Source: Comamonadaceae bacterium (lineage in GTDB: Bacteria; Pseudomonadota; Gammaproteobacteria; Burkholderiales; Burkholderiaceae_C). From it: 41,119 nucleotides of DNA. The notes beneath the pieces are model-generated. The model was given only the letters and a program-made list of their open reading frames with translations. It ran no database searches and was not told the origin of the DNA. The position numbers and the translations under genes were made by a program. The stretch lies in the NCBI GenBank assembly GCA_947453645.1, contig CANGHG010000002.1, forward strand, positions 1 to 41,119. Reading direction: 5' to 3'. Position 1 is the first letter of the stretch. Every line of letters starts with the position of its first letter. Of the stretch, positions 3,516 through 20,321 are shown piece by piece.

Positions 3516-4070
3516 TTAAACGCGCTTGCGGTACTCGGCTGTGCGGGTGTCAATCTCCACCTTGTCGCCTTGAGCAACGAAAATGGGCACGTTGATGTCA
3601 AATCCAGTAGAGATTTTGGCGGGTTTGAGCACTTTGCCAGATGTATCGCCTTTGACAGCAGGCTCGGTCCAGGTGATTTCACGCACCACGCTGGTGGGCA
3701 ATTCCACGGAAATGGCCTTGCCGTCATAAAACACCACCTCGGCGGCCATGCCGTCTTCCAGGTAGTTGAGCGAATCGCCCATGTTCTCGTTTTCCACCTC
3801 GTATTGGTTGAACTCGGTGTCCATCCACACATACATGGGATCGGCAAAGTAGGAGTAGGTGCACTCTTTCTTGTCCAACACGATTTGGTCCATCTTGTCG
3901 TCAGCCTTGAACACCACCTCGGTGTTGAAGTTGGCAATCAGGCTTTTGAGCTTCATGCGCACGGTGGCAGAGTTGCGTCCGCCACGGCTGTATTCGGTTT
4001 TGAGAACGACCATGGGGTCTTTGCCGTGCATGATGACGTTGCCGGCGCGAATTTCTTGAGCTATTTTCAT
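3516..4070 (-). CDS. efp: translation elongation factor P (Arg32 type)
   Basis: EF-P binds ribosomes stalled on consecutive prolines and promotes peptide bond formation. The 184-residue length and three-domain sequence (starting [13 protein letters not shown]) are canonical. The loop that reaches the peptidyl-transferase centre reads SRGGRNS with arginine at position 32, where E. coli has the lysine that is beta-lysylated. Arg32 EF-Ps are activated by rhamnosylation, and the gene for the matching enzyme EarP lies immediately upstream with a 29-bp gap. The ATG at 4070 gives the exact family N terminus. Confidence 0.97.
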
Positions 4071-4090
4071 AAAGGTAGGGGCTTGGAAAA

Positions 4091-4107
4091 GCGGCTATTT
4101 TAGCCGT
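4091..4107 (-). promoter_or_regulatory. small hairpin between earP and efp
   Basis: On the minus strand CGGCT-AAAAT-AGCCG is followed by CTTTTCC, spanning the earP stop codon (4100-4102). It resembles a weak intrinsic terminator or attenuator. It could uncouple abundant efp expression from low earP expression, or be a chance 5-bp stem. Confidence 0.3.
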
Positions 4108-5152
4108 GCGTCGCCACGAAGCTTTCCAAGCGGCTGACAAGGTCGGTTTGGGCTTGCAAACGCAGCTTCAAAGCTTGCGCCCAAGCAGACCATTGCGCCA
4201 GATGTTCAGGGGTGAACAAGGGCAGGGCGGTGGGTTCATCGGCGTTCCAAGCCCAGTGTGCTTGCACCACCACATCTGGGGCTTGGGTGGTTTGCAAAAA
4301 GGCTTGCAACTTTGGCACATGGGCCCCATCGTCTTGCGGGTAGATTTGCCACAAAAACGCTTGGCCTGCCCAGATGGCCCGTACCAGCGAGTCCTCGCCG
4401 CGCACCAGGTTCAGGTCTTGCGAGGCCAGCATCTCGTCAAAAGCAGGGTGGCTGAGGTAGGGCAGTTCTGTCACTTCAAATTGAGGCGGGGCTTGCCATG
4501 AACCCAAGGCCAGCCGCACTGCTTGGGTGGCCCGACCCGCGGTCACACTCAGCTGAACCTTGGTCGGCCATTGGTTCAGTTGTTCAAGCCACAGACCCAG
4601 GCTGGCGGGTTCGTAGCAAAACAGGCTGATCTTGAGCGGCTGCGTTTCCTGGGCCGACGCCTTCAGGGCCTTCAGGGTATTAGGGCCACCCATCACCCCG
4701 CCACTCTCCTGCGTCAAACCCGGGTAGTAAAACCATTTGGTCAGGCCCTTGGCTGGGCCGCTCATCACAGGCGAGGGCAGGCCGTGATTGCGCAGCGCGG
4801 AAGTTTCAGCGCTGAAATACTCCAAGTTGATCCACACGGGCGCTTGCGGCCATGTGGCCATGGCGGCTTGAAAAGCAAGGGGCAGTTCGCAGCCAAAGGC
4901 TTCCATCACCACATGGGCTGGATCTTCCTGGGCAACTGAAGTGTGTTCTTCTGGCCAAGGGTGCAGCGCCACGCCCTCCATGCCTTCGGGGGCCATCCAA
5001 GCCAAGGCAGAGGCGTCGTCCACGTAGAGCCGCACCGAGTGTCCCCGTGCTGCCAACTGACTGGCCAAGCGCCAACAAACGCCCAAATCGCCGTGGTTGT
5101 CCACCACGCGACAGAAAACCACCCAGCGCTGATGGGTGTTTACCCGAGACAT
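4100..5152 (-). CDS. earP: EF-P arginine-32 rhamnosyltransferase EarP
   Basis: EarP (formerly DUF2331) is a cytosolic GT-B enzyme that transfers rhamnose from dTDP-rhamnose to Arg32 of EF-P by inverting chemistry. At 350 residues it has the family's usual size. The N-terminal motif VVDNHGDLGVCWRLA places the two catalytic aspartates at Asp18 and Asp22, and the RGEDS motif (251-255) supplies the conserved Glu/Asp that contact the nucleotide sugar. It is directly upstream of efp on the same strand, the classic arrangement in betaproteobacteria and pseudomonads. The neighbouring Arg32 in EF-P confirms the function independently. Confidence 0.95.
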   Translation of the reverse strand: MSRVNTHQRWVVFCRVVDNHGDLGVCWRLASQLAARGHSVRLYVDDASALAWMAPEGMEGVALHPWPEEHTSVAQEDPAHVVMEAFGCELPLAFQAAMATWPQAPVWINLEYFSAETSALRNHGLPSPVMSGPAKGLTKWFYYPGLTQESGGVMGGPNTLKALKASAQETQPLKISLFCYEPASLGLWLEQLNQWPTKVQLSVTAGRATQAVRLALGSWQAPPQFEVTELPYLSHPAFDEMLASQDLNLVRGEDSLVRAIWAGQAFLWQIYPQDDGAHVPKLQAFLQTTQAPDVVVQAHWAWNADEPTALPLFTPEHLAQWSAWAQALKLRLQAQTDLVSRLESFVATHG

Positions 5153-5212
5153 GGGTTCAGAGGGTGTTCAAGCTCAAGCAAAATGCTTGTTTTTCTCAAA
5201 AGGACAGCGGTC

Positions 5213-5506
5213 ATGCCCAAAGCTTATTTCATTTCCACCTACCAAGCCGTTCACGATGCCGATGCTTTGGCGGCCTACGCCAAGCTGGCGCTGCCCGCCA
5301 TCCAAGCCGCTGGCGGCACTTTCATCGCGCGTGGCATGCCCGCCGTGGTGAAAGAGCACGGCCAGATGCAACGCACCGTGCTGATTGAATTCCCCAATCT
5401 CGGTGCGGCCAAGGCCGCCTACGACAGCGAGGGTTACAAAGAAGCGCTGCGTGCCTTGGGTGAGAACTCGGTGGTGCGCGACATCCGCATCATTGAAGGC
5501 GTCTAA
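5213..5506 (+). CDS. DUF1330 domain protein
   Basis: A 97-residue cytosolic protein starting MPKAYFISTYQAVHD and containing RTVLIEFPN and the A-x-x-A-Y-x-S-x-x-Y-K-E-A pattern. These are hallmarks of the DUF1330 dimeric alpha/beta-barrel (ferredoxin-like) family, whose biochemical role is undefined. The start at 5213 is supported by AGGA at 5201-5204 and by the family N terminus; longer readings upstream overlap earP and have unlike composition. It ends 3 nt before the aminotransferase ATG, so the two are probably co-transcribed. Confidence 0.85.
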   Translation: MPKAYFISTYQAVHDADALAAYAKLALPAIQAAGGTFIARGMPAVVKEHGQMQRTVLIEFPNLGAAKAAYDSEGYKEALRALGENSVVRDIRIIEGV

Positions 5507-5509
5507 GCC

Positions 5510-6712
5510 ATGACACAGCTGAGTTTGCGCGCCCAAAGCCTGGGCACAGAAAACGCGTTTGTGGTGCTGGCCGAGGTGAACAAGTTGATCCGTGAGGGAC
5601 ACGACATCATCTCGTTTTGCATCGGGCAGCCCGACTTTCACACTCCGAAAAATATCCAAGACGCTGGCATCAAGGCCATTCAAACTGGCAAGCACGGCTA
5701 CACGCCCTCAGCAGGCATTCCCGAGTTGCGCCAAGCGGCAGCCGACTATTTCAGCCGCACCCGTGGGGTGAAAGTCGACGCCGATGATGTGGTGGTGGGC
5801 GCGGGTGCCAAGCCCTTCATTGGTTACACCATCCAGTCGGTGACCGACCATGGCGCGGGTGACGAGGTGATTTACCCCGTGCCAGGTTTTCCCATTTATG
5901 AGTCGCAAATCAAGGCCAATGGTGCGGTGGGTGTGCCCATTTATTTGCGCGAAGAACGCAATTTCAGCTTCGACCCGCAAGAACTTGCCGACAAAATCAC
6001 GCCACGCACCAAACTGTTGATATTGAACTCCCCGCAAAACCCCACGGGCGGCATTTTGACCAACCAAGACTTGGAGGCCATCGCCGAAATTTTGCGTCGG
6101 CACCCTCAGGTGTGGGTGTTTGCCGATGAAATTTATGGTCAGCTGGTGTATGACGGCGAGTTCAAGTCCATTGCCGCACTGCCTGGCATGCAAGAGCGCA
6201 CCATCTTGTCCGACGGTTGCTCCAAAACCTGGGCCATGACCGGCTGGCGTTTGGGCTTCACGGCCAACAAAAAACTCGCGCCTTACTTCACCAACTGGAT
6301 CACCAACACCGAATCTTGTGCCTCGCACATCACCCAATGGGCGGGAGTGGAAGCTTTGAATGGCCCGCAGGACGATGCCCGCCACATGCGCGAGGTGTTT
6401 TTGAGTCGCCGCAATTTGATCGTGGGCTTGCTGAACCAAGTGCCTGGCGTGACTTGCAAAAGCCCAGGCGGTGCGTTTTACGCTTGGCCCAATGTCACCG
6501 AGGCCTGCCGAATGACTGGTTGCGCCGACTCCGAGGTGCTGCGCAAGCGCTTGTTGCTGGAAGCTGGGGTGGCGGTGCTGGCCGATATTCACTTTGGCCC
6601 CCGTGTGCCTGGTGACGGACAGCACATCCGCTTCAGCTATGCGGCGTCTGACGAGGCCATCAAGGCAGGCATAGCCCGCATGGCCGAGTTCATCAAGGCC
6701 AATACGCTTTAG
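5510..6712 (+). CDS. PLP-dependent class I/II aminotransferase
   Basis: A 400-residue fold-type I aminotransferase of the aspartate aminotransferase superfamily. Visible landmarks are the N-terminal GQPDFHTP and GYTPSAGIPELR segments, NSPQNPTGG (residues about 176-184), the ADEIYGQLVYDG PLP-binding Asp/Tyr region, the lysine in SDGCSKTWAMTGWRLGF that forms the internal aldimine, and the C-terminal R in IRFSYA that binds the substrate carboxylate. The amino acid preference cannot be read from sequence; aspartate, alanine/valine or aromatic are all possible. Its 3' end overlaps the convergent DUF1501 gene by 4 bp. Confidence 0.93.
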   Translation: MTQLSLRAQSLGTENAFVVLAEVNKLIREGHDIISFCIGQPDFHTPKNIQDAGIKAIQTGKHGYTPSAGIPELRQAAADYFSRTRGVKVDADDVVVGAGAKPFIGYTIQSVTDHGAGDEVIYPVPGFPIYESQIKANGAVGVPIYLREERNFSFDPQELADKITPRTKLLILNSPQNPTGGILTNQDLEAIAEILRRHPQVWVFADEIYGQLVYDGEFKSIAALPGMQERTILSDGCSKTWAMTGWRLGFTANKKLAPYFTNWITNTESCASHITQWAGVEALNGPQDDARHMREVFLSRRNLIVGLLNQVPGVTCKSPGGAFYAWPNVTEACRMTGCADSEVLRKRLLLEAGVAVLADIHFGPRVPGDGQHIRFSYAASDEAIKAGIARMAEFIKANTL

Positions 6713-10151: not shown

Positions 10152-11378
10152 CTACAACCACATGGTCACACAGCCTGCGCCAATCATGGCCAGCAAACCT
10201 GCTGTGACCAGTCGACCATAAGCACGGCCACCTGAAGCAAAAGCGATGCTGGACTTGGCCACGGCACTGCTGGCCAATATGCCCATCACGCCCCAGCGCA
10301 CCGTGTCGGGTTGGTTGGTCCCTGTGACCGCCAATTGCGCCACGCTCACCGCTGCTGCATGGATCTCGGCCAAACCCACCACCCAAGATGCCACCAAGGT
10401 GCCGCTGTCACCAAACAACTGGCGCAGCCAAGCCGACAGCAGCGTCACCAAACCGATGGTGGCGGCAATGATCAAGGCATGTGAAATCTTGAAGGCGCTG
10501 GTGGCCGTGTCCACTTCGGGGGGCACATGCACATCGATTTGACGCAAACAAAACCCCGCGACCAAGATCACGGCCAGGGCGGCGCTGCTCAAGGGCAGCA
10601 GCATGGACAGCATCAGAGCTTCGGAGGTGGCACCCAACACCATCACAAACAAGAGCAATGAGGACAACACCGACAAGAGTGCAGCGGCACTGGCGGCATA
10701 CAGCAAATGCGGCTTTTCTTTCACATTGCGCCCCAAACTGACCACGCTGGCCGTGGACGACACAAAGCCCGAGAAAAAACCTGCAATGGGAAAGCCCCAG
10801 CGTGTGCCGGTGGCCCTGAACGCAATATGCCCAAACATGCCCACAGCCATCACCAACACCACGATGCGCCACAAGGCATAGGGCTTGAGCGCACCCCAAG
10901 GATCGATGGCGTGGTTGGGCAACATGGGCAAGATGACCATGGCCGCTGCCGCCAGCAGCAACACGTCCTTGAGTTCATCTTCTCGTATCAATTCACGGCC
11001 AAAGCGTCGCAAGGGCTCTTTGGCAAACAAAATGCCAGCCACCACCACCGCGATGCTGGAAGCCAAGACGGGGTTTTGCATGGCCAAACCGGCCAGCATC
11101 AAGGTCACCAAAATGGACACTTCACCTGTCATGCCCAAGCTGGTTTTGGCTGATTGCTGATAACCCACCACGGCCAAGGCACCCACCATCACCACAGCGG
11201 CCACAAAAGCTGCCATGCCTAAGTTGAAACTCACCGAACCCAGAATCGCGACCAGTGTGTGGGTGCGAATGCCCGCCATGGTTTCAACAGGTTTGTGCAG
11301 ACGTTCACGGACCGTGCCAATCATCAAGCCCAGGCCCAGTGCAGTCAGCAAACCTGTGAGGGCGTTTTCCCATTCCAT
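10152..11378 (-). CDS. MgtC/SapB family membrane protein with DUF4010 domain
   Basis: A 408-residue polytopic inner-membrane protein. The N-terminal part carries the MgtC/SapB signature (GLGLMIGTVRERLHKP then AGIRTHTLVAILG, about residues 15-50). The rest (ELKDVLLLAAAAMVILP..., GFFSGFVSSTASV, SSAVAKSSIAFASGG) matches the DUF4010 domain fused to MgtC in many proteobacteria. Function is unknown, although stand-alone MgtC modulates F-ATPase or Mg2+-limited growth. The start at 11378 is supported by AGAGG about 8 nt upstream; a longer reading to 11444 lacks support. It lies 17 nt downstream of the MFS gene on the same strand. Confidence 0.88.
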   Translation of the reverse strand: MEWENALTGLLTALGLGLMIGTVRERLHKPVETMAGIRTHTLVAILGSVSFNLGMAAFVAAVVMVGALAVVGYQQSAKTSLGMTGEVSILVTLMLAGLAMQNPVLASSIAVVVAGILFAKEPLRRFGRELIREDELKDVLLLAAAAMVILPMLPNHAIDPWGALKPYALWRIVVLVMAVGMFGHIAFRATGTRWGFPIAGFFSGFVSSTASVVSLGRNVKEKPHLLYAASAAALLSVLSSLLLFVMVLGATSEALMLSMLLPLSSAALAVILVAGFCLRQIDVHVPPEVDTATSAFKISHALIIAATIGLVTLLSAWLRQLFGDSGTLVASWVVGLAEIHAAAVSVAQLAVTGTNQPDTVRWGVMGILASSAVAKSSIAFASGGRAYGRLVTAGLLAMIGAGCVTMWL

Positions 11379-11395
11379 CGCAAACCTCTTTTCTT

Positions 11396-12688
11396 CTAAT
11401 CGTTCAAATCTTGACCGCGTGTCTCGGGCAACCAGAAATAACACACCAACAAGGCCAACAGCAGCAAGCCACTGGGGTAGACCAGGCCGATCAAAGGCAC
11501 GCCTGTTTGACTGGCAATCAAGCCCACCACATAGGGCGACAGACCGCCCATCCAGCCAGCGGCCAAGTTGTGTGGCAAACCCACGGCGGTGTAACGGGTG
11601 CGGGCATTGAACAACTCCGAGAGCAAGGCCGTTTGAGGGCCAGTCACCAGAGACACGGCCAACACCAAGATCGACATCAAACCGAACACAGCCCAGAGTT
11701 GGTCGGCCACCAGGGGCAGCAAGCTGTAAATGGGCAGCACCGCCATCAGGCCCAACAACAAACCCGACAACACAACAGGTCTGCGCCCCATGCGGTCAGA
11801 CCAAGCGCCTGCCAGGTAGGTGAGTGGAAACAGGCACAAGGTGCTGGCCATACTCAACCAACCCACGGTGACAGGGTCCATGTGCACCACGGTTTTCAAA
11901 TACACCGCGATATACACCTGGGAGCTGAAAAACAAGACGCTGCCACCTGCGGACACGCCAAAGAACAACAGCAGCATGCGAGCCCTGGTGGTGGGGTCAC
12001 GCCAGCAGTCTTTCAACGGCGATCGGCTGAGCTTGTGCTGGGTTTGCAGGTGATTGAAAACAGGCGACTCCAACAGGGCAAGACGCGCTTTGAAGCTCAG
12101 CAAAAGCAAAACGGCAGAGAGCAAAAAGGGCACACGCCATCCCCAGCTTGAAAATGCCTCGGGGCTGAGCCATGTTTGCAACAGCACGATTTGCGCGGTG
12201 GAGGCCAAGATGCCCAGACCACCCATCCACTGCAACACACTGGTAGCCGCACCTCGTTGCGCCACTGGCGCGTGCTCTGCCAAATACACATTGGCGCCGC
12301 CAATTTCACCGCCCATGGCCAAACCTTGAATCAAACGCAGGGCGAGTAACAGGCCAGTGGCCCACCAACCCCATTGGGCATGGGTGGGCAACAAGCCCAC
12401 TGCGAAGGTGGCCAGGCCCATGATCCCAATGGTGGCGATGAACACCTGCTTGCGCCCGAAACGGTCGCCATATGAGCCGAAGATTGCCGCACCAAGTGGA
12501 CGCACCACCATGCCCATGCCGAATGTGGCCAAGCTGTAGAGCATTGCTGCAACAGGGTCATCGCTGGGAAAGAAGAGCGTGGCAAAGTGAACCGCCAATG
12601 TGGCGAAGGTGAGAAAGTCGTACCACTCGATGAAAGTGCCAAAGCAGGCAGCCAAGGCAATGCGCTTGTAGTAATGAACTTCAGACAT
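11396..12688 (-). CDS. MFS transporter, metabolite:H+ symporter (MHS/ProP/ShiA-like) family
   Basis: A 430-residue 12-helix secondary transporter. Diagnostic features are FGTFIEWYDFLTFA at the first helix, SYGDRFGRKQVF between helices 2 and 3, RLIQGLAMGGEIGGANVYLAEHA, and the repeat WSDRMGRRPV after helix 8. These identify the MHS branch, whose members import small organic acids, betaine or shikimate; the substrate here is not predictable. The ATG at 12688 is preferred to an upstream TTG at 12706. The neighbouring MgtC-like gene gives no hint about its cargo. Confidence 0.9.
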   Translation of the reverse strand: MSEVHYYKRIALAACFGTFIEWYDFLTFATLAVHFATLFFPSDDPVAAMLYSLATFGMGMVVRPLGAAIFGSYGDRFGRKQVFIATIGIMGLATFAVGLLPTHAQWGWWATGLLLALRLIQGLAMGGEIGGANVYLAEHAPVAQRGAATSVLQWMGGLGILASTAQIVLLQTWLSPEAFSSWGWRVPFLLSAVLLLLSFKARLALLESPVFNHLQTQHKLSRSPLKDCWRDPTTRARMLLLFFGVSAGGSVLFFSSQVYIAVYLKTVVHMDPVTVGWLSMASTLCLFPLTYLAGAWSDRMGRRPVVLSGLLLGLMAVLPIYSLLPLVADQLWAVFGLMSILVLAVSLVTGPQTALLSELFNARTRYTAVGLPHNLAAGWMGGLSPYVVGLIASQTGVPLIGLVYPSGLLLLALLVCYFWLPETRGQDLND

Positions 12689-12782
12689 GCTTTCATTTTG
12701 ACTCAATCCGATTGCCTTGCTTTAGATCAAATGGTGTCGAGGTACTGAGCTCTACCATGCTTCGTTGTTGATCAGGTTTCTC

Positions 12783-13817
12783 ATGGCGCTCAAATTCCCA
12801 CCCTTTGAATACAAATACCTGCTGGTGCTGCTGCTCATGGGCTTGCTGGCATGGGCCACGCCTCGGTTGGTCTATGGGCCTGAAGTGCCAGTGGTCTTGG
12901 TGCGTCAAGCTGATCTGGTGCGCTCCTTGGTCGCCAGTGGTCGGGTGGTGAGTCCGCACCGGGTTGAGATTGGGGTTCAGATGACCGCGCAAGTGGCCGC
13001 AGTACCCGTGGCCGAAGGTGATCAGGTCAAGGCTGGTCAAGTCTTGATGGTCTTGGTTTCTAATGAAACCCGAGCCGCATTGAACCAGGCTTTGCACGCG
13101 CAGGCACAAGCCCAAATCCGTTGGCAGCAAATGTCGCAGTTGCAAACCCCTGTGGCCCAAGAAGTCCAACTTCAAGCTGAGTTGAATTTGGCCAATGCCA
13201 AGCGCAATGTGGAGCGCAACAGCTTGTTGTTTGGCCAGGGTTTCATCAGCGAGGCCGCCAAGGAAGATGCTGAACGCGCTTTGCAATTATCGCAATCGCA
13301 ACAACAAACAGCCCAACACCAATTGAACAGTGTTCAAGACGGCGGCTCTGAAAGGGCCGCTGCTCACGCCGCTTGGATGACCGCCCAGGCTGCCGCTCAA
13401 AGCGCACAAGCGCGTTTGGCCTACACCCAAGTGACCGCGCCCATGGCGGGCACCTTGATTGCACGTAGCGTCGACCCGCTGCGTGGCTCGGTTGAAGTCA
13501 AACTCAACGTCAGCACCCCCCCAGATTACTTGCGCCAAGACATGACCGTGTCGGTGGACATGGAAGTTGAGCGTCGCAACAACGTCTTGCTGATCCCCAT
13601 GACTGCCGTCCATGAATTGCCGTCTTTGCATCCTTGGGTGCATCTGGTGCGTGATGGTCGTGTGGTGCGCCAATCACTGGTGCTGGGCATGTCCAGTGCA
13701 GGTGTTGTTCAAGTCGTTTCAGGCTTGCGGCAAGGTGAGCAAGTGGTGTCGCCTGCCAATCCAGAACTATCCGAGCAAGCACTTGTGCGGCCAAGTGCTG
13801 TGGGCGACAAGCTGTGA
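12783..13817 (+). CDS. HlyD/MacA-like periplasmic adaptor with shortened barrel region
   Basis: A 344-residue membrane-anchored adaptor of a tripartite ABC exporter. It has one N-terminal helix (residues about 10-30), a biotinyl-lipoyl half (VVSPHRVEIGVQMTAQV, AEGDQVKAGQVL), a long alanine/glutamine-rich coiled coil (about 95-200), and the second lipoyl half YTQVTAPMAGTLIARS. It then runs directly into VDPLRGSVEVKLNV and DMTVSVDMEV. Relatives carry roughly 55-60 residues of beta-barrel between those segments, so an in-frame deletion near nt 13470 is likely. The ATG at 12783 has an AGG 8 nt upstream. The stop overlaps the permease GTG start (13814-13817), so the genes are coupled. Confidence 0.82.
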   Translation: MALKFPPFEYKYLLVLLLMGLLAWATPRLVYGPEVPVVLVRQADLVRSLVASGRVVSPHRVEIGVQMTAQVAAVPVAEGDQVKAGQVLMVLVSNETRAALNQALHAQAQAQIRWQQMSQLQTPVAQEVQLQAELNLANAKRNVERNSLLFGQGFISEAAKEDAERALQLSQSQQQTAQHQLNSVQDGGSERAAAHAAWMTAQAAAQSAQARLAYTQVTAPMAGTLIARSVDPLRGSVEVKLNVSTPPDYLRQDMTVSVDMEVERRNNVLLIPMTAVHELPSLHPWVHLVRDGRVVRQSLVLGMSSAGVVQVVSGLRQGEQVVSPANPELSEQALVRPSAVGDKL

Positions 13818-14928: not shown

Positions 14929-15677
14929 TGCTGATGCATGTTGCCGCCACACCCATCGTGAATTTGCAAGCCATCCACAAGTCGTTCAATCGGGGTGAGT
15001 TCAATGAGACCGAGGTTTTGCACGGCATTGATTTGCAACTCCAAGCGGGTGAATTTTGTGCCGTGGTCGGTCCCTCGGGTTCTGGCAAAAGCACCTTGCT
15101 CAATTTGGTTGGCTTGCTTGACAGGCCCACACAAGGTCAATTGCAAATTGCAGGGCAAGAAACCACCTTGCTCGTCGACAGTCACCTCACGCATCTGAGA
15201 GGTCACAGCATTGGTTTTGTGTTCCAACACCACCACCTGATCAGCGCATTCACTGCGGTTGAAAACGTCATGCTGCCCATGATGGCCGATCGTGGTTTCA
15301 CCACCAAGGCCATGTATGACCGGGCGGTGGGTTTGCTCGACAGCGTGGGTTTGCTGCCTTGGCTGAATTCGCCTGCCGCACGCCTGTCGGGAGGGCAGCA
15401 GCAACGGGTGGCGGTGGCCAGGGCCTTGGCCATGTCGCCTGTGTTGATCTTGGCGGATGAGCCCACAGGCAACTTGGACACCAAAAGTGCTGATGCTGTG
15501 TTTGAGTTGCTGCGCGGCGTGTCGCAACACCAAGGCACCAGTGTTTTGTTTGTCACCCACAACCCCTTGCTGTCGGCGCGTTGCGACCGAACCATTGAGG
15601 TGGTGGACGGGCGTATCAGTCAGGTTGAAGTCACACTGGCCATGTCCAATCAAGATGTCCCTTTCAGGAGAAGTTGA
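14928..15677 (+). CDS. ABC transporter ATPase, LolD/MacB type
   Basis: A 249-residue nucleotide-binding subunit with Walker [10 protein letters not shown] (48-56), Q-loop VFQHHHL (from 99), signature [15 protein letters not shown] (153-167), Walker [14 protein letters not shown] (172-184) and the switch histidine in FVTHN. The E-P-T-G-N-L-D string is typical of the LolD/MacB/FtsE group, matching the adaptor and permease upstream. The ATG at 14928 overlaps the permease stop; an ATG at 14934 sits 9 nt after GAGG and may be the true start. Its stop overlaps the next gene's ATG. It appears intact although its permease is broken. Confidence 0.93.
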
Positions 15678-16066
15678 TGATAAAAAGACGCTTATGGATC
15701 TTGAGCGCTTGTTGCTTGACCAGCCTGGCCCTGGCGGCCACCCCCGAGGAGATGCTCGCCGAGTTCAGCAAGGCTTCAGGGCAAAAAGCACAAGCTGATA
15801 AGGGCCAGGTGTTCTTCACCACCACCCACGGCAAAGAGTGGTCGTGCAGCACCTGCCACACCAAACAGCCCACGGTGGAGGGGCAACACGCTTCCACCCA
15901 CAAAGTCATTTCGCCCTTGGCCCCTGCAGCCAACCCCAAGCGCTTCACCGATGCCGCCAAAACCGAAAAATGGTTCAGGCGCAACTGCAACGATGTGCTG
16001 GGCCGCGAATGCAATGCGAATGAAAAAGCCGATGTCTTGGCTTGGCTCATCACCCTCAAACCCTGA
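15677..16066 (+). CDS. SHP-type oxygen-binding monoheme cytochrome c (DUF1924)
   Basis: A 129-residue exported cytochrome. A signal peptide ([20 protein letters not shown]) is followed by one heme site CSTCH (57-61). The later FRRNCNDVLGRECNANEKAD segment matches sphaeroides heme protein (SHP), in which an asparagine is the displaceable sixth heme ligand next to a disulphide; Asn103 with Cys104 and Cys112 are the likely counterparts. SHP binds O2 and NO in its reduced form. The ATG overlaps the ATPase stop (TGATG, 15675-15679) with AGGAG 6 nt upstream. The diheme cytochrome and cytochrome b genes that normally accompany SHP follow. Confidence 0.88.
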   Translation: MIKRRLWILSACCLTSLALAATPEEMLAEFSKASGQKAQADKGQVFFTTTHGKEWSCSTCHTKQPTVEGQHASTHKVISPLAPAANPKRFTDAAKTEKWFRRNCNDVLGRECNANEKADVLAWLITLKP

Positions 16067-16082
16067 ACTCTGAAAGCAGATC

Positions 16083-16550
16083 ATGAAGATTTTCAAAACC
16101 AGTGTGCTCATGTTGTGTGGCTTGGCAGCGCTGCAATCCGCATTAGCAGACGGTGTCAAGCGAGCCCCCGTGTTGGACACCTACACCCAAGAGTGCGCCA
16201 GTTGCCACATGGCTTATGCACCGGCCTTGCTGCCTGCTGCTTCTTGGCAACGCATCATGGCTTCCCTGAGCAAGCACTACGGTGTGGATGCTTCATTGGA
16301 CGCCACCACGCAAAAGAAGATTGGCACTTGGCTGAGCGACAACGCCGCCACTGGCAAACGCACCAGCCTGGAACCGCCCAAAGACCGCATCACCCAAAGC
16401 GACTGGTTTTTGCGCAAGCACAACAGCCATGAAGTAGCCCCATCAGTATGGAAGCGAGCCTCGGTGGGCAGCCCATCCAATTGCAACGCCTGCCATCCCA
16501 AAGCAGCGCAGGGGGACTTTGAGGAAGACCAAGTGAGGATTCCAAAATGA
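16083..16550 (+). CDS. DHC-type diheme cytochrome c
   Basis: A 155-residue exported protein with a signal peptide ending near ALA-DGV (about 22) and two heme-attachment motifs, CASCH (38-42) and CNACH (134-138). The spacing and the intervening WLSDNAAT, WFLRKHNSHEV sequence fit DHC, the diheme cytochrome that reduces SHP in Rhodobacter sphaeroides. It should shuttle electrons in the periplasm between the membrane cytochrome b and SHP. It starts 16 nt after the SHP gene and its stop overlaps the next ATG by 4 bp. Confidence 0.9.
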   Translation: MKIFKTSVLMLCGLAALQSALADGVKRAPVLDTYTQECASCHMAYAPALLPAASWQRIMASLSKHYGVDASLDATTQKKIGTWLSDNAATGKRTSLEPPKDRITQSDWFLRKHNSHEVAPSVWKRASVGSPSNCNACHPKAAQGDFEEDQVRIPK

Positions 16551-17176
16551 ACGACAGCACTTTAGAAACCACAGCCATTCGCGTATGGGATTGGCCTGTT
16601 CGGGTGTTCCACTGGTCACTGGCGTTGTGCGTGTTCATCGCCTTTTTCACAGGCGAAAGCGAGCAATACAGTTTGCTGCACCAAACCTTGGGCTATGCCG
16701 CTGCAGGCTTGATCGCCTTTCGATTGGTTTGGGGTGTGGTCGGCACACGTTACGCCCGTTTTCAAGCGTTTGTGCGCGGGCCAAAAGCGGTGTGGACTTA
16801 TGTGAACAGCATTCGACAAGGCCATGCAGAGCACCATGTGGGCCACAACCCTGTGGGTGGTGTGGCGGTCTTGCTGCTCATGGGCTTGGTGGCTTTGACT
16901 GCCTTGTCAGGTTGGATGGTTGCGGCAGGTGACGCCCCTGGCTGGCAAGAAGAGTTGCATGAACTGGCGGCCAACACCTTGATGATGGTGGTCGCTATCC
17001 ATGTGCTGGGCGTGGTGCTCAGCAGCCGTTTGCACCGTGAAAACCTGGTGGCAGCCATACTCAGCGGCTACAAGCAAGGCCATGCGCGTGATGGGATTGC
17101 CAGGTCTTGGTGGGTCTTGGGCTTGTTGTTGTTGGCAGCCTTGATGGTCTTTATCTGGCGTCAGCTGCTACTTTGA
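16547..17176 (+). CDS. membrane cytochrome b (cytochrome b561 / hydrogenase b-type family)
   Basis: A 209-residue four- to five-helix membrane protein. WDWPVRVFHWSLA (15-27), LLHQTLGY (43-50), GHNPVGG (99-105) and the helices with LHEL (137-140) and AIHVLG (150-155) provide the paired heme-b histidines (His22, His45, His138, His152 as candidates). Such proteins pass electrons from the quinone pool to periplasmic cytochromes. Translational overlap with the DHC gene indicates it is the membrane electron donor for the DHC-SHP pair. No terminator was recognised after it. Confidence 0.9.
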   Translation: MNDSTLETTAIRVWDWPVRVFHWSLALCVFIAFFTGESEQYSLLHQTLGYAAAGLIAFRLVWGVVGTRYARFQAFVRGPKAVWTYVNSIRQGHAEHHVGHNPVGGVAVLLLMGLVALTALSGWMVAAGDAPGWQEELHELAANTLMMVVAIHVLGVVLSSRLHRENLVAAILSGYKQGHARDGIARSWWVLGLLLLAALMVFIWRQLLL

Positions 17177-17274: not shown

Positions 17275-18123
17275 ATGAACAGACCACCCGACCAATACAC
17301 CCAAGTCAAGGGCCACCGCATCCGCTATTGGACGCAAGGTGAGGGCGCATCCACCGTAGTGCTGCTGCACGGCATCAGTTGTTCGGTGCTGGAGTGGGAG
17401 CACAACATCGCGGCCCTGGCGCAAACGCACCAAGTCGTGGCCCTCGATTTGTTGGGTTGCGGTTTGAGCGACAAACCCGTGGACGCCGATTACGACATGC
17501 AAGCCCAAGCCCGGTTTGTGTTTGATTTCATGGACACCATGGGATTGACCTCGGTTCACCTCGTGGGCAACTCCATGGGTGGCCGCATCGCCATGGAATG
17601 CGCGGCCATGCAACCAGAGCGTGTCAAGTCCTTGGTGTTGTCGGCACCTGCGGGCATTGGTCGCGACACGCTGTTCAATTTCCGATTGGCCAGCATCCCG
17701 GTGCTGGGCGACATCCTCACCAAGCCCAGCCTGTTTGGCCTGGGCATGATTTGGAAACTCGCTTTTCACGACAAGCGCTTCGTCACCCCTGACATGGTGG
17801 CCGAGAAAGTGGCTCTGGCCCTGTTGCCCAATGCCCAAACTGTGTTCCTCAAAACGCTGCGAGGCTTTCTGAGCTTTGGTGGCTTTCTAGAGTCGCCGCG
17901 TCGGGCTTTTCTGCAGCGTATTCCCAGCATCAAGTGCCCCAGCTTGGTCATTTGGGGGCAACAAGACCAGTTTTTGCCGGTCACCCATGTGCAGGTGCTC
18001 AAGCCCTTGTTGGCGCATGCCCAATATGAGTTGATCGACCACTGCGGCCATGTGCCCATGACCGAAATCACCGATCGCTTCAATCAACTGACCAACACCT
18101 TCTTGAACCAACAAGCCGCATGA
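17275..18123 (+). CDS. alpha/beta-fold hydrolase
   Basis: A 282-residue alpha/beta hydrolase with oxyanion motif LLHGISCS (30-37), nucleophile elbow GNSMGG (Ser100), a likely acid Asp231 (WGQQDQFLP) and His259 (DHCGHVPM). These form a complete catalytic triad for an esterase, hydrolase or C-C bond hydrolase; the substrate is unknown. No signal peptide. Its stop overlaps the ATG of the BchC-like gene (ATGA, 18120-18123), so the two products are probably made together. BchO of photosynthesis clusters is also an alpha/beta hydrolase, but I see no specific resemblance that would justify that name. Confidence 0.88.
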   Translation: MNRPPDQYTQVKGHRIRYWTQGEGASTVVLLHGISCSVLEWEHNIAALAQTHQVVALDLLGCGLSDKPVDADYDMQAQARFVFDFMDTMGLTSVHLVGNSMGGRIAMECAAMQPERVKSLVLSAPAGIGRDTLFNFRLASIPVLGDILTKPSLFGLGMIWKLAFHDKRFVTPDMVAEKVALALLPNAQTVFLKTLRGFLSFGGFLESPRRAFLQRIPSIKCPSLVIWGQQDQFLPVTHVQVLKPLLAHAQYELIDHCGHVPMTEITDRFNQLTNTFLNQQAA

Positions 18124-19070
18124 CCCACGCCCAAGCCATCGTCTTTGAAGCCCCGCAAGTGCTTTCAGTGCAAACACTGGAGGTCAAGGCTTTTGAACCC
18201 CATGACATCGAGGTGCAGGTGAGTTTCAGCGGCATCAGCACCGGCACCGAGCGTTTGTTGTGGGACGGCAGCATGCCGCCGTTTCCAGGTTTGGGTTACC
18301 CCTTGGTGCCAGGCTACGAAACCGTGGGCCAGGTGGTGCGGGTGGGCGAGGGCGCTTCGGTGCAAGTGGGTGACCATGTGTTTGTGCCAGGTTCCTACAC
18401 CTTCCAAGGCGTGCGCAATATTTTTGGTGGTGCGGGCTCCAAGCTGATCGTGCCGCACGACCGTGTGGTGAAAGTGCATCCCGACCTGGGGCCCAAAGCG
18501 GTGTTGTTGGCCTTGGCTGCCACTTGCTATCACGCCATTGCATTGGGCGGCAAGCGCTCGCCCATGGTGTTTCCCGATTTGATCGTGGGCCACGGCGTCA
18601 TGGGCCGTCTGCTGGCTCGCATTTGCGTAGCCATGGGTCAAGCCGCACCCACCGTGTGGGAAACCCAAGCCTTGCGTCAATCGGGTGCGGTGGGTTACAG
18701 CGTGGTTCATCCTGATGACGACCCTCGCAAAGACTACAAAGCCATTTATGACGTGAGTGGGGACGCCTCCATTTTGAACAGCCTCATCATGCGCTTGAGC
18801 CCTGGGGGCGAAGTGGTGTTGGCCGGGTTTTACAAGCAAGACATTGGCTTTGCGTTTGCACCCGCTTTCATGCGTGAAGCCGAAATACGTGTGGCGGCGC
18901 AATGGAAAAAACAAGACCTGTTGGACGTCACGGCCTTGGTTGAGAGCGGTGCTTTGTCACTTGAGGGACTCATCACCCACACTTTTTCCGTCTCCAGAGC
19001 CCAAGAGGCTTACAAGATCGCTTTCTCCGACCCACAGTGCCTCAAAATGATGATGGACTGGCAAAACTGA
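18120..19070 (+). CDS. bchC: BchC-like medium-chain dehydrogenase (bacteriochlorophyllide dehydrogenase family)
   Basis: A 316-residue MDR-fold protein. BchC oxidises the 3-hydroxyethyl group of bacteriochlorophyllide a precursors to acetyl. The sequence shows BchC-typical SGISTGTERLLW (37-48), MPPFPGLGYPLVPGYE (52-67), LIVGHGVMGRLLAR with the Rossmann glycines (154-167), GGEVVLAGFY and CLKMMMDW at the end. The usual catalytic zinc ligands of alcohol dehydrogenases are replaced (Ser-Thr for the Cys region, Tyr in VPGYE for GHE), as in BchC. No other bacteriochlorophyll, carotenoid or reaction-centre gene is in the window, so it is either a displaced bchC or a homologue with another substrate. 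Confidence 0.7.
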   Translation: MTHAQAIVFEAPQVLSVQTLEVKAFEPHDIEVQVSFSGISTGTERLLWDGSMPPFPGLGYPLVPGYETVGQVVRVGEGASVQVGDHVFVPGSYTFQGVRNIFGGAGSKLIVPHDRVVKVHPDLGPKAVLLALAATCYHAIALGGKRSPMVFPDLIVGHGVMGRLLARICVAMGQAAPTVWETQALRQSGAVGYSVVHPDDDPRKDYKAIYDVSGDASILNSLIMRLSPGGEVVLAGFYKQDIGFAFAPAFMREAEIRVAAQWKKQDLLDVTALVESGALSLEGLITHTFSVSRAQEAYKIAFSDPQCLKMMMDWQN

Positions 19071-19086
19071 TAATCAAGACTTCACC

Positions 19087-19374
19087 ATGAAACAACAACC
19101 TCAAACATTTGAAGATTTCACGGCCATTGCCATCGACGAGGGCTTCGACGAAGTCTTGGTGCGTGAATGGACCCCTGCTTTGGTGATCGACACCCACACC
19201 CATCCTTTTGACGTGAGCGCTTGGGTGGTGCGTGGTGAATTCAAACTCACTGTCGGTGACAAAGAAATCAAGCTCAAAGCAGGTGACCCTTTCCGATTGG
19301 CACGAGACATTCCCCATGCAGAGCACTACGGCCCAGAAGGCGCCACCGTGTGGGTGGCCAGGGCCAACCCATGA
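19087..19374 (+). CDS. small cupin-domain protein
   Basis: A 95-residue single-domain cupin. The two cupin motifs are visible as DTHTHPFDVSAWVVRGEF (about 35-52, supplying His and the later Glu) and DPFRLARDIPHAEHYGPEG (about 67-85, supplying the C-terminal His). Conserved histidines imply a bound metal. Function is not predictable; small cupins are often sensors or isomerases. It lies 16 nt after the BchC-like gene and its stop overlaps the next small gene. Confidence 0.85.
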   Translation: MKQQPQTFEDFTAIAIDEGFDEVLVREWTPALVIDTHTHPFDVSAWVVRGEFKLTVGDKEIKLKAGDPFRLARDIPHAEHYGPEGATVWVARANP

Positions 19375-19508: not shown

Positions 19509-20321
19509 TTAGTCCAGTTTCACTTTGCTCAAATCAAACGTGGGTTTGGGCATGCTGAGCTTCATGCCCTCCAAAGTGTGCACCAACAACTCGGCTAAAA
19601 AATAATCACGGTAAGGCTTGCTGTCGGCAGGTACGATGTACCAAGGCGCGTTGTCGGTGCTGGTGGCCGCTAAGGCGTCTTGATAGGCCTGCATGTAGTC
19701 CGACCAAAGGACGCGGTCTTCAAAATCCGAGGCCTGCAGTTTCCAGTGCTTGTGCGGGTCGTCCAAGCGCGCCTGCAGGCGTTTTTTTTGTTCTTTTTTC
19801 GAGATGTGCAAATAGCATTTCAACACCGTGATGCCTTCATCGTGCAGCATGGCTTCGAAGTTCAAAATATCTTTGTAGCGACTTTCAACGGTTTTGGCTT
19901 TGATCCAACCCCGCACCCTCGTCACCAGCACGTCTTCATAGTGACTGCGGTTGAAGATCACCATGTCGCCGCGTCCTGGTACTTTGCGATGGACACGCCA
20001 TAAAAAATCGTGACGCTTCTCTTCATCATTGGGGGCACTGAAGGCGTGTGCTTGCACGCCCAAGGGACTGATGTGCGAGAACACACGGCGAATGACACCG
20101 TCTTTGCCTGAAGTGTCCATGCCTTGCAGCACCAGCAACAAACCGCGTGACTTGCCTGCATACAAAGTGGTTTGCAACTTGTTGAGCTTGTCAAACAAGG
20201 GCTTCATGTCCTGAGTATCAGCATCAAAGTCTTTGGCCTCAGCGGGCAGGGTCTTCACCTCTTCCAAGTTGAAACCACTGTCTTTTTTCACCAGCCAAGG
20301 CTGAAAAAAATCTTTGCTCAT
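19509..20321 (-). CDS. ppk2: polyphosphate kinase 2 family protein
   Basis: A 270-residue cytosolic PPK2. These enzymes transfer phosphate between polyphosphate and nucleoside mono- or diphosphates. The Walker A-like GMDTSGKDG (67-75), the following SHISPLGV, and the Walker B/lid region VIFNRSHYEDVLVTRV (111-126) are diagnostic. Length and motif order fit the one-domain group that phosphorylates AMP or ADP; the class cannot be fixed by eye. It overlaps the NCS2 permease gene by 1 bp, so nucleotide uptake and polyphosphate-driven nucleotide phosphorylation may be co-expressed. Confidence 0.92.
   Translation of the reverse strand: MSKDFFQPWLVKKDSGFNLEEVKTLPAEAKDFDADTQDMKPLFDKLNKLQTTLYAGKSRGLLLVLQGMDTSGKDGVIRRVFSHISPLGVQAHAFSAPNDEEKRHDFLWRVHRKVPGRGDMVIFNRSHYEDVLVTRVRGWIKAKTVESRYKDILNFEAMLHDEGITVLKCYLHISKKEQKKRLQARLDDPHKHWKLQASDFEDRVLWSDYMQAYQDALAATSTDNAPWYIVPADSKPYRDYFLAELLVHTLEGMKLSMPKPTFDLSKVKLD

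Follow-up and report, generated by a model that had tools for sequence, protein, structure and literature searches.

A bchC gene outside the photosynthesis gene cluster, probably the successor of a deleted cluster copy, in a group of Comamonadaceae

Introduction

In the synthesis of bacteriochlorophyll a, the 1-hydroxyethyl group that serves as the substrate of BchC is made by BchF. The reaction of BchC itself, as described in PMC10101016, converts the C3 hydroxyethyl group into acetyl. According to Zheng et al. 2011, the block crtF-bchCXYZ is conserved in all clusters analysed there (PMC3176799), and a 2025 review likewise treats it as a conserved block (PMC12654162). A bchC-like gene outside such a block is present in the window, i.e. 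the whole 41,119 nucleotide stretch of contig CANGHG010000002.1 analysed here. An earlier note on this stretch had offered two explanations: a phototrophic genome with a displaced bchC, or a BchC-like enzyme recruited for another oxidation. The locus thus raises the question of whether the gene is a true bchC, and of how it came to stand apart from the photosynthesis genes.

Results

Identity of the window gene

The gene and its immediate surroundings comprise the following features:

17275..18123, + strand, alpha/beta hydrolase immediately upstream of bchC (Pfam Abhydrolase_1)
18120..18123, + strand, ATGA in which the stop of the hydrolase gene and the start of bchC overlap (ORF coordinates and sequence)
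18120..19070, + strand, bchC, displaced, of the bchC2 lineage (TIGR01202 422.4 bits; single match in the bin; clade 98/90)
19087..19374, + strand, small cupin, 16 bp 3' of bchC (Pfam Cupin_2)
19509..20321, − strand, PPK2-type polyphosphate kinase, convergent (TIGR03709 340 bits, cut-off 247.2)

The bchC ORF starts with ATG and remains open throughout its 316 codons for amino acids. The encoded protein matches TIGR01202, the equivalog model for bchC, well above the curated cut-off of 291.25 bits and over the full length of the profile (positions 2–308 of 308). The second-best family in the profile scan reaches 40.8 bits only, which rules out a general MDR dehydrogenase misnamed BchC. Judged by family membership, the window protein is an authentic BchC, in keeping with the BchC homologue named in the earlier note, and its position inside BchC in the trees presented below agrees with this assignment.

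All four motifs listed in that note are found in the protein, GISTGTE at residue 38, PGLGYPLVPGYE at 56, LIVGHGVMGRLLAR at 154 and CLKMMMDW at 307. Their residues are mostly invariant or near-invariant across 44 cluster and 18 displaced BchC sequences, with variable positions such as 58, 59, 311 and 312. The absence of zinc ligands, also pointed out previously, is evident from alignments to solved structures, in which the GxC cysteine of alcohol dehydrogenases corresponds to Ser40 and the GHE histidine to Tyr66. Since Ser40 occupies its column in 44/44 and Tyr66 in 39/44 cluster BchC sequences, loss of the zinc ligands is a trait of BchC as such. A search by sequence for a solved BchC structure yielded none, the nearest being threonine and alcohol dehydrogenase chains (best E 1.5e-10).

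Among the columns conserved in cluster BchC, 94 of 98 are retained in at least 90% of the sequences of the lineage to which the window gene belongs, termed here bchC2. The four departing columns are V/L, I/V, L/M and L/M. Values of dN/dS between window-type bchC genes are 0.05–0.12, at dS of 0.66–1.44, which is near saturation.

Neighbourhood of bchC in the window

Family profiles run on 41 window ORFs, six of which matched no family, detected bchC as the only photosynthesis gene, so that the statement of no other bch, crt, puf or puh gene in 41 kb holds for these ORFs. The contig also encodes EF-P/EarP, DUF1501/DUF1800, xanthine permease, an ion channel, a branched-chain amino acid transporter and enzymes of thiolase/enoyl-CoA-hydratase type. 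Genes for DUF1924, dihaem cytochrome c and cytochrome b561 are consecutive at 15674–17176 (+), upstream of the hydrolase–bchC pair, and are also located near bchC2 in locus L034.

The ATGA overlap suggests possible translational coupling of the hydrolase and bchC. Assignment of the hydrolase as BchO was rejected (TIGR03056 54.6 bits, cut-off 172.55). A hydrolase is found near bchC2 in only 3/9 informative genomes that share this locus (G000, which is the genome of the window, G480, and G015 with 1.6 kb in between), and a functional tie between the two genes is therefore not supported; G007, whose contig begins inside bchC, is uninformative for this count and for the upstream region. In G015 (L034, L146), the hydrolase and bchC2 are separated by a 518-aa DUF5666 ORF. 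The cupin adjoins bchC2 in 10/10 genomes of this type. PPK2 is near the gene in 9/10, being in pieces in G023, and marks the conserved bchC2 locus, with no functional tie to bchC claimed. Both PPK2 and the ion channel beside bchC2 in G023 (L038, L147) match as two pieces each, as broken genes or assembly errors would.

Photosynthesis genes of the same genome

G000 is a bin of 1.59 Mb in 116 contigs, 69% complete, in which the window corresponds to contig C2. It contains exactly one bchC match, the window gene. The genes bchXYZ, bchF and pufLM, through which the earlier note proposed to look for phototrophy, are present on contigs C58, C89 and C9, away from the window contig. C58 carries an end piece of bchX together with bchY, bchZ, pufA, pufL, pufM, pufC and crtD; its crtA-like and crtC-like genes score below their cut-offs, and an ORF of the size of pufB has no match. 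C9 encodes BchF, BchN, BchB, BchL, PuhA, AcsF and a CrtI-family desaturase, together with a B12-binding-domain protein adjoining bchF, for which we infer an AerR/PpaA-like role.

C89 ends with an O-methyltransferase gene followed directly by the first part of bchX, without bchC in between. The former is named crtF from its place and from Pfam Methyltransf_2, with no NCBIfam match at E 1e-20. The ends of C89 and C58 have exactly 44 nt in common, inside bchX. Aligned with the canonical cluster of G013, C89 follows it until 9 bp before the G013 bchC and resumes at the bchX start, with no bchC at the canonical crtF–bchX position of G000. By its gene content, G000 is a phototrophic genome with a cluster lacking bchC at the normal place.

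The cluster of G000 (L079 on C89, L004 on C58) looks mosaic, its crtF side being nearer to G015 and the part from bchX onward nearer to G013. C58 is 84.9% identical to G013 over 7.0 kb and 80.8% to G015 over 7.8 kb, and the bchX part of C89 (641 bp) is 91.9% identical to G013. On the crtF side of C89, identity is 79.7% to G015 over 3.0 kb including bchX, and 72.6% to G013 over 2.3 kb. Given this closer match to G013 from bchX onward, the cluster may have undergone recombination, or C58 may have been mis-binned.

Distribution of bchC in relatives

To describe where bchC sits, 84 genomes of the genus were surveyed with a match threshold of E 1e-30, and loci were viewed in all matching genomes. 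A bchC match was found in 54 of them. The gene lies beside bchX in 40 genomes, at the window's locus together with the cupin in ten (G000, G006, G007, G015, G023, G035, G440, G444, G458 and G480), elsewhere in one (G028), and beside crtF at a contig end in the remaining three (G012, G025 and G474). Two bchC pieces in G021 look like one gene on two contigs. In an order-wide sample, 45/399 genomes had bchC at E 1e-70, with one match apiece, and 36/36 loci viewed, out of 44 besides G000, place the gene beside bchX.

A gap in the cluster, i.e. crtF followed by bchX without bchC, was detected in nine genomes: G000, G006, G007, G015, G023, G458, G480, G476 and G481. The last two are bins of 64% and 70% completeness, respectively, with no bchC match anywhere in the bin. 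In G006 (97% complete), G015 (98%), G023 (94%) and G458 (99%), the single bchC is that at the window's locus; in G006, the bchC2 locus and the cluster gap are on contigs of 553 and 396 kb. Concerning the other genomes of window type, bchX of G035 is split over contig ends, with its upstream side outside the view, and bchX has no match in G440 and G444. The G007 bin (L195, L213) contains two different rpoB genes; it is for this reason probably mixed, and counts that include it need care.

Six genomes, G010, G017, G445, G456, G474 and G478, have a second bchC beside their cluster bchC; these copies are listed together with bchC2 of G028:

L084 (G010) 12209–13156, + strand, second bchC (bchC2), genome keeps cluster bchC
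L176 (G456) 11360–12301, + strand, second bchC (bchC2), genome keeps cluster bchC
L175 (G478) 5034–5975, − strand, second bchC (bchC2), genome keeps cluster bchC
L177 (G445), L174 (G474) and L086 (G017), second bchC (bchC2), genomes keep cluster bchC
L085 (G028) 3898–4851, − strand, intact bchC2, at the locus that also holds the second copy of G017

In G010, G456 and G478, the second copy lies at a distance of 2–4 kb from crtF, with another hydrolase gene running divergently to it. Five of the six second copies adjoin a hydrolase distantly like that of the window (28–30% identity), the exception being G017, whose copy is at a different locus, common to G028. Families of the genes neighbouring bchC2 in G028 (a vitamin-uptake-like transporter, TctC, DUF2878 and a FAD/thioredoxin-type reductase) gave no functional hint, nor did the neighbour families of bchC2 in ULC146.

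G028 (96% complete) and G440 (89%) have bchC2 and no match to bchX, bchL or pufM. The latter genome was sampled over 1,034,713 bases (76 loci) of roughly 1.8 Mb, searched with proteins around the cluster of its sister G458. Seven proteins of the left flank of the G458 cluster region match the sampled sequence at 82–96%. Proteins of the cluster region itself (about 17–66 kb of the contig) gave nothing above 51% identity, and 35 kb to the right of the cluster are likewise without an ortholog-level match in the sampled part. This pattern would fit loss of photosynthesis genes and incompleteness of the G440 bin alike.

Phylogeny and sequence identity

The main BchC tree was built from 62 rows, without partial rows and several of the other cluster rows; its outgroup is off by one row from forming one side of a branch. 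The bchC2 clade (98/90) has 18 rows, comprising the ten window-type genes, the six second copies, G028 and ULC146bin1 (L039). It is nested in BchC of the genus, with the cluster BchC of G013, G014, G036, G446 and G465 as its sister (96/91). Inside this clade, a separate deep branch (stem 0.55) unites the second copies with G028 and is not nested in window-type genes. A quick tree of 80 rows gives the same bchC2 split (SH-aLRT 94). In both trees, the window protein falls inside authentic BchC, which is the placement that the name given to it in the earlier note implied.

Identity of the window BchC is 78–86% to the nine other window-type rows and 79% to ULC146. It amounts to 65–67% to second copies and G028, 64–66% to the G013 group, 67–68% to four Rhodoferax-type rows, and 57–66% to 26 other cluster copies of the genus.

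The window BchC pairs with that of G015 (98/94), and crtF of C89 pairs with crtF of G015 (87/78). In the crtF tree (31 rows, the partial G023 and G022 rows dropped), a branch of modest support (86/76) separates the eight gap genomes from the rest. A match to rpoB was obtained in 18/30 genomes searched, with none in G000, and the tree was built from 18 sequences of 17 genomes, leaving out the G023 fragment and a second G022 piece. G006, G007, G458 and G440 group together in it (100/100), and a wider clade (100/100) adds G015 and the G013 group; within this clade, the position of G015 has no resolution. The end branch of G440 is longer than that of its sister G458 in BchC (0.079 vs 0.035); as its rpoB end branch is also about twice as long (0.094 vs 0.048), there is no extra acceleration of BchC in G440.

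PpsR/CrtJ-type palindromes

PMC5362033 presents bchC as carrier of a model PpsR/CrtJ promoter, with two CrtJ-bound TGT-N12-ACA palindromes of Rhodobacter capsulatus that span −47 to −30 and −21 to −4 relative to the start of transcription, and are therefore 8 bp apart. In relatives, we accepted pairs with an 8-bp spacer and at most one mismatch per site. In 5/6 cluster loci, the two sites of such a pair start about 48 and 22 bp ahead of the start codon of bchC; the sixth locus examined (Rhodoferax) has only the upper palindrome at one mismatch or less. In the gap genomes, the pair starts about 91 and 65 bp before the start codon of bchX, without exception (9/9).

Upstream of bchC2, 17 loci were scanned, 16 of which are informative, the contig of G474 ending at the gene. 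No palindrome pair was detected within 400 bp in any of the 16, window included. Lone palindromes with at most one mismatch precede some bchC2 genes, e.g. at −332 in G015. Throughout the window, six pairs with spacers of 7–10 bp were found, all with a 9-bp spacer and none less than 2.5 kb from bchC; the window is slightly richer in pairs than its 20 mononucleotide shuffles (average 2.4, maximum 5). Because the pair is absent upstream, the displaced bchC is probably outside direct PpsR/CrtJ control.

More PpsR-type pairs with 8-bp spacers were noticed elsewhere in the clusters of G000 and G006 (L079 at 3217, L080 at 16996 and L082 at 17065). PpsR is encoded in G006 beside the B12-domain gene and bchF (379 bits, cut-off 275), and contig C9 of G000 ends next to the place matching this site. 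FNR-type sites upstream of bchC occur only in a scattered manner and gave no lead.

Discussion

Taken together, the results make it highly probable that the window gene is an authentic bchC, that bchC2 took over from a native bchC that was then deleted with its palindromes left behind, and that PpsR/CrtJ control was probably lost in the process. Family membership, single copy, cluster gap, clade and kept palindromes were read in the sequences. For the enzyme activity, the order of events and the change in regulation, we infer the following course. The bchC2 lineage would have its origin close to the lineage that comprises the G013 group and the gap genomes, and other relatives would carry it alongside their own cluster bchC. 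In the ancestor of the gap subclade, bchC2 would have taken over, and the native gene would have been cut from crtF-bchC-bchX by a deletion that took the coding region and left the two tandem palindromes of the bchC promoter, now preceding bchX. From a gene unlinked to the cluster, BchC2 would oxidise the C3 1-hydroxyethyl group to acetyl for bacteriochlorophyll a. Takeover by a separate lineage, with deletion of the native gene, is suggested by the composition of the bchC2 clade, which includes second copies in six genomes retaining a normal bchC. Because 94 of the 98 BchC-conserved columns are kept, BchC2 most likely still forms the 3-acetyl group, outside the PpsR-controlled operon. The first explanation in the earlier note thus stands insofar as the genome is phototrophic and its bchC lies off the cluster, while "displaced" is too simple a word for a separate lineage with second copies in six relatives.

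An enzyme that had been recruited to oxidise some other alcohol or hydroxyethyl compound, and that took no part in bacteriochlorophyll synthesis, would fit a gene located off the cluster, with a cupin and sometimes also a hydrolase as neighbours, and would explain the presence of the gene in G028 and G440, where bchX, bchL and pufM have no match. This alternative is nevertheless very unlikely, given that bchC2 is the sole bchC found in phototrophic bins, four of them 94–99% complete, and that it combines an equivalog-level score with the kept columns; in G000, the single bchC and these columns leave recruitment unsupported. The case of G440 loses weight with the 35 kb beside the cluster of G458, which are also absent from its sampled part. 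Origin of the window contig or of the cluster contigs from another organism could be suspected from the fragmentation and 69% completeness of G000 and from C58 being nearer to G013 than to G015, but it is highly unlikely: the bchC2–cupin locus recurs in ten bins and the cluster gap in nine, which rejects an assembly artefact for the whole pattern, the G006 loci are on long contigs, and both the window BchC and crtF of C89 pair with G015.

A realistic, if minor, possibility is that there was no separate lineage, the native bchC having moved within the subclade and the second copies of other genomes having been acquired later by transfer. In the tree, bchC2 is nested in the genus, and its sister is the cluster BchC of the nearest relatives, the G013 group; had bchC2 started out as the native gene, this is the position it should take. 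Against such a move, the second copies and G028 form a deep branch of their own instead of falling inside window-type genes; this branch leaves the origin of the lineage undecided, and the move differs from the takeover described above in the order of events only. Rather unlikely, in our estimate, is a functionally distinct second BchC, free of PpsR/CrtJ repression, which would have first existed beside the cluster copy and then made it dispensable. If this were true, BchC2 might remove photoreactive 3-hydroxyethyl intermediates while the cluster is silenced by oxygen, or might act on another hydroxyethyl substrate; the persistence of bchC2 in G028, a 96% complete genome in which bchX, bchL and pufM were not found, would suit such an enzyme.

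Returning to the takeover by bchC2, the window protein shares with BchC of crtF-bchCXYZ blocks (TIGR01202) the full-length family match, the conserved columns and the lost zinc ligands. It differs from them in that its gene is not between crtF and bchX, belongs to a separate clade and is without the palindrome pair. The two TGT-N12-ACA type palindromes 8 bp apart that precede bchC in clusters of relatives correspond to the R. capsulatus bchC promoter as described above (PMC5362033), whereas the pair of the gap genomes precedes bchX. Photosynthesis genes outside a cluster are also described for Vulcanimicrobium alpinum, and scattering as such is therefore not new; in that organism, according to the review, the genes are spread throughout the genome, whereas here one gene left an otherwise ordinary cluster (PMC12654162). 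Among the literature matches listed, which cover the literature in part, none describes a bchC outside the cluster combined with deletion of the copy inside it.

The subclade studied here lost bchC from the block and kept its palindromes for bchX, and a bchC of an unlinked lineage is the only bchC found. It offers a natural experiment that asks whether formation of the acetyl group has to be regulated together with the other steps of the pathway. It is also a warning for annotation, since a reading restricted to the cluster would label the gap genomes as lacking bchC.
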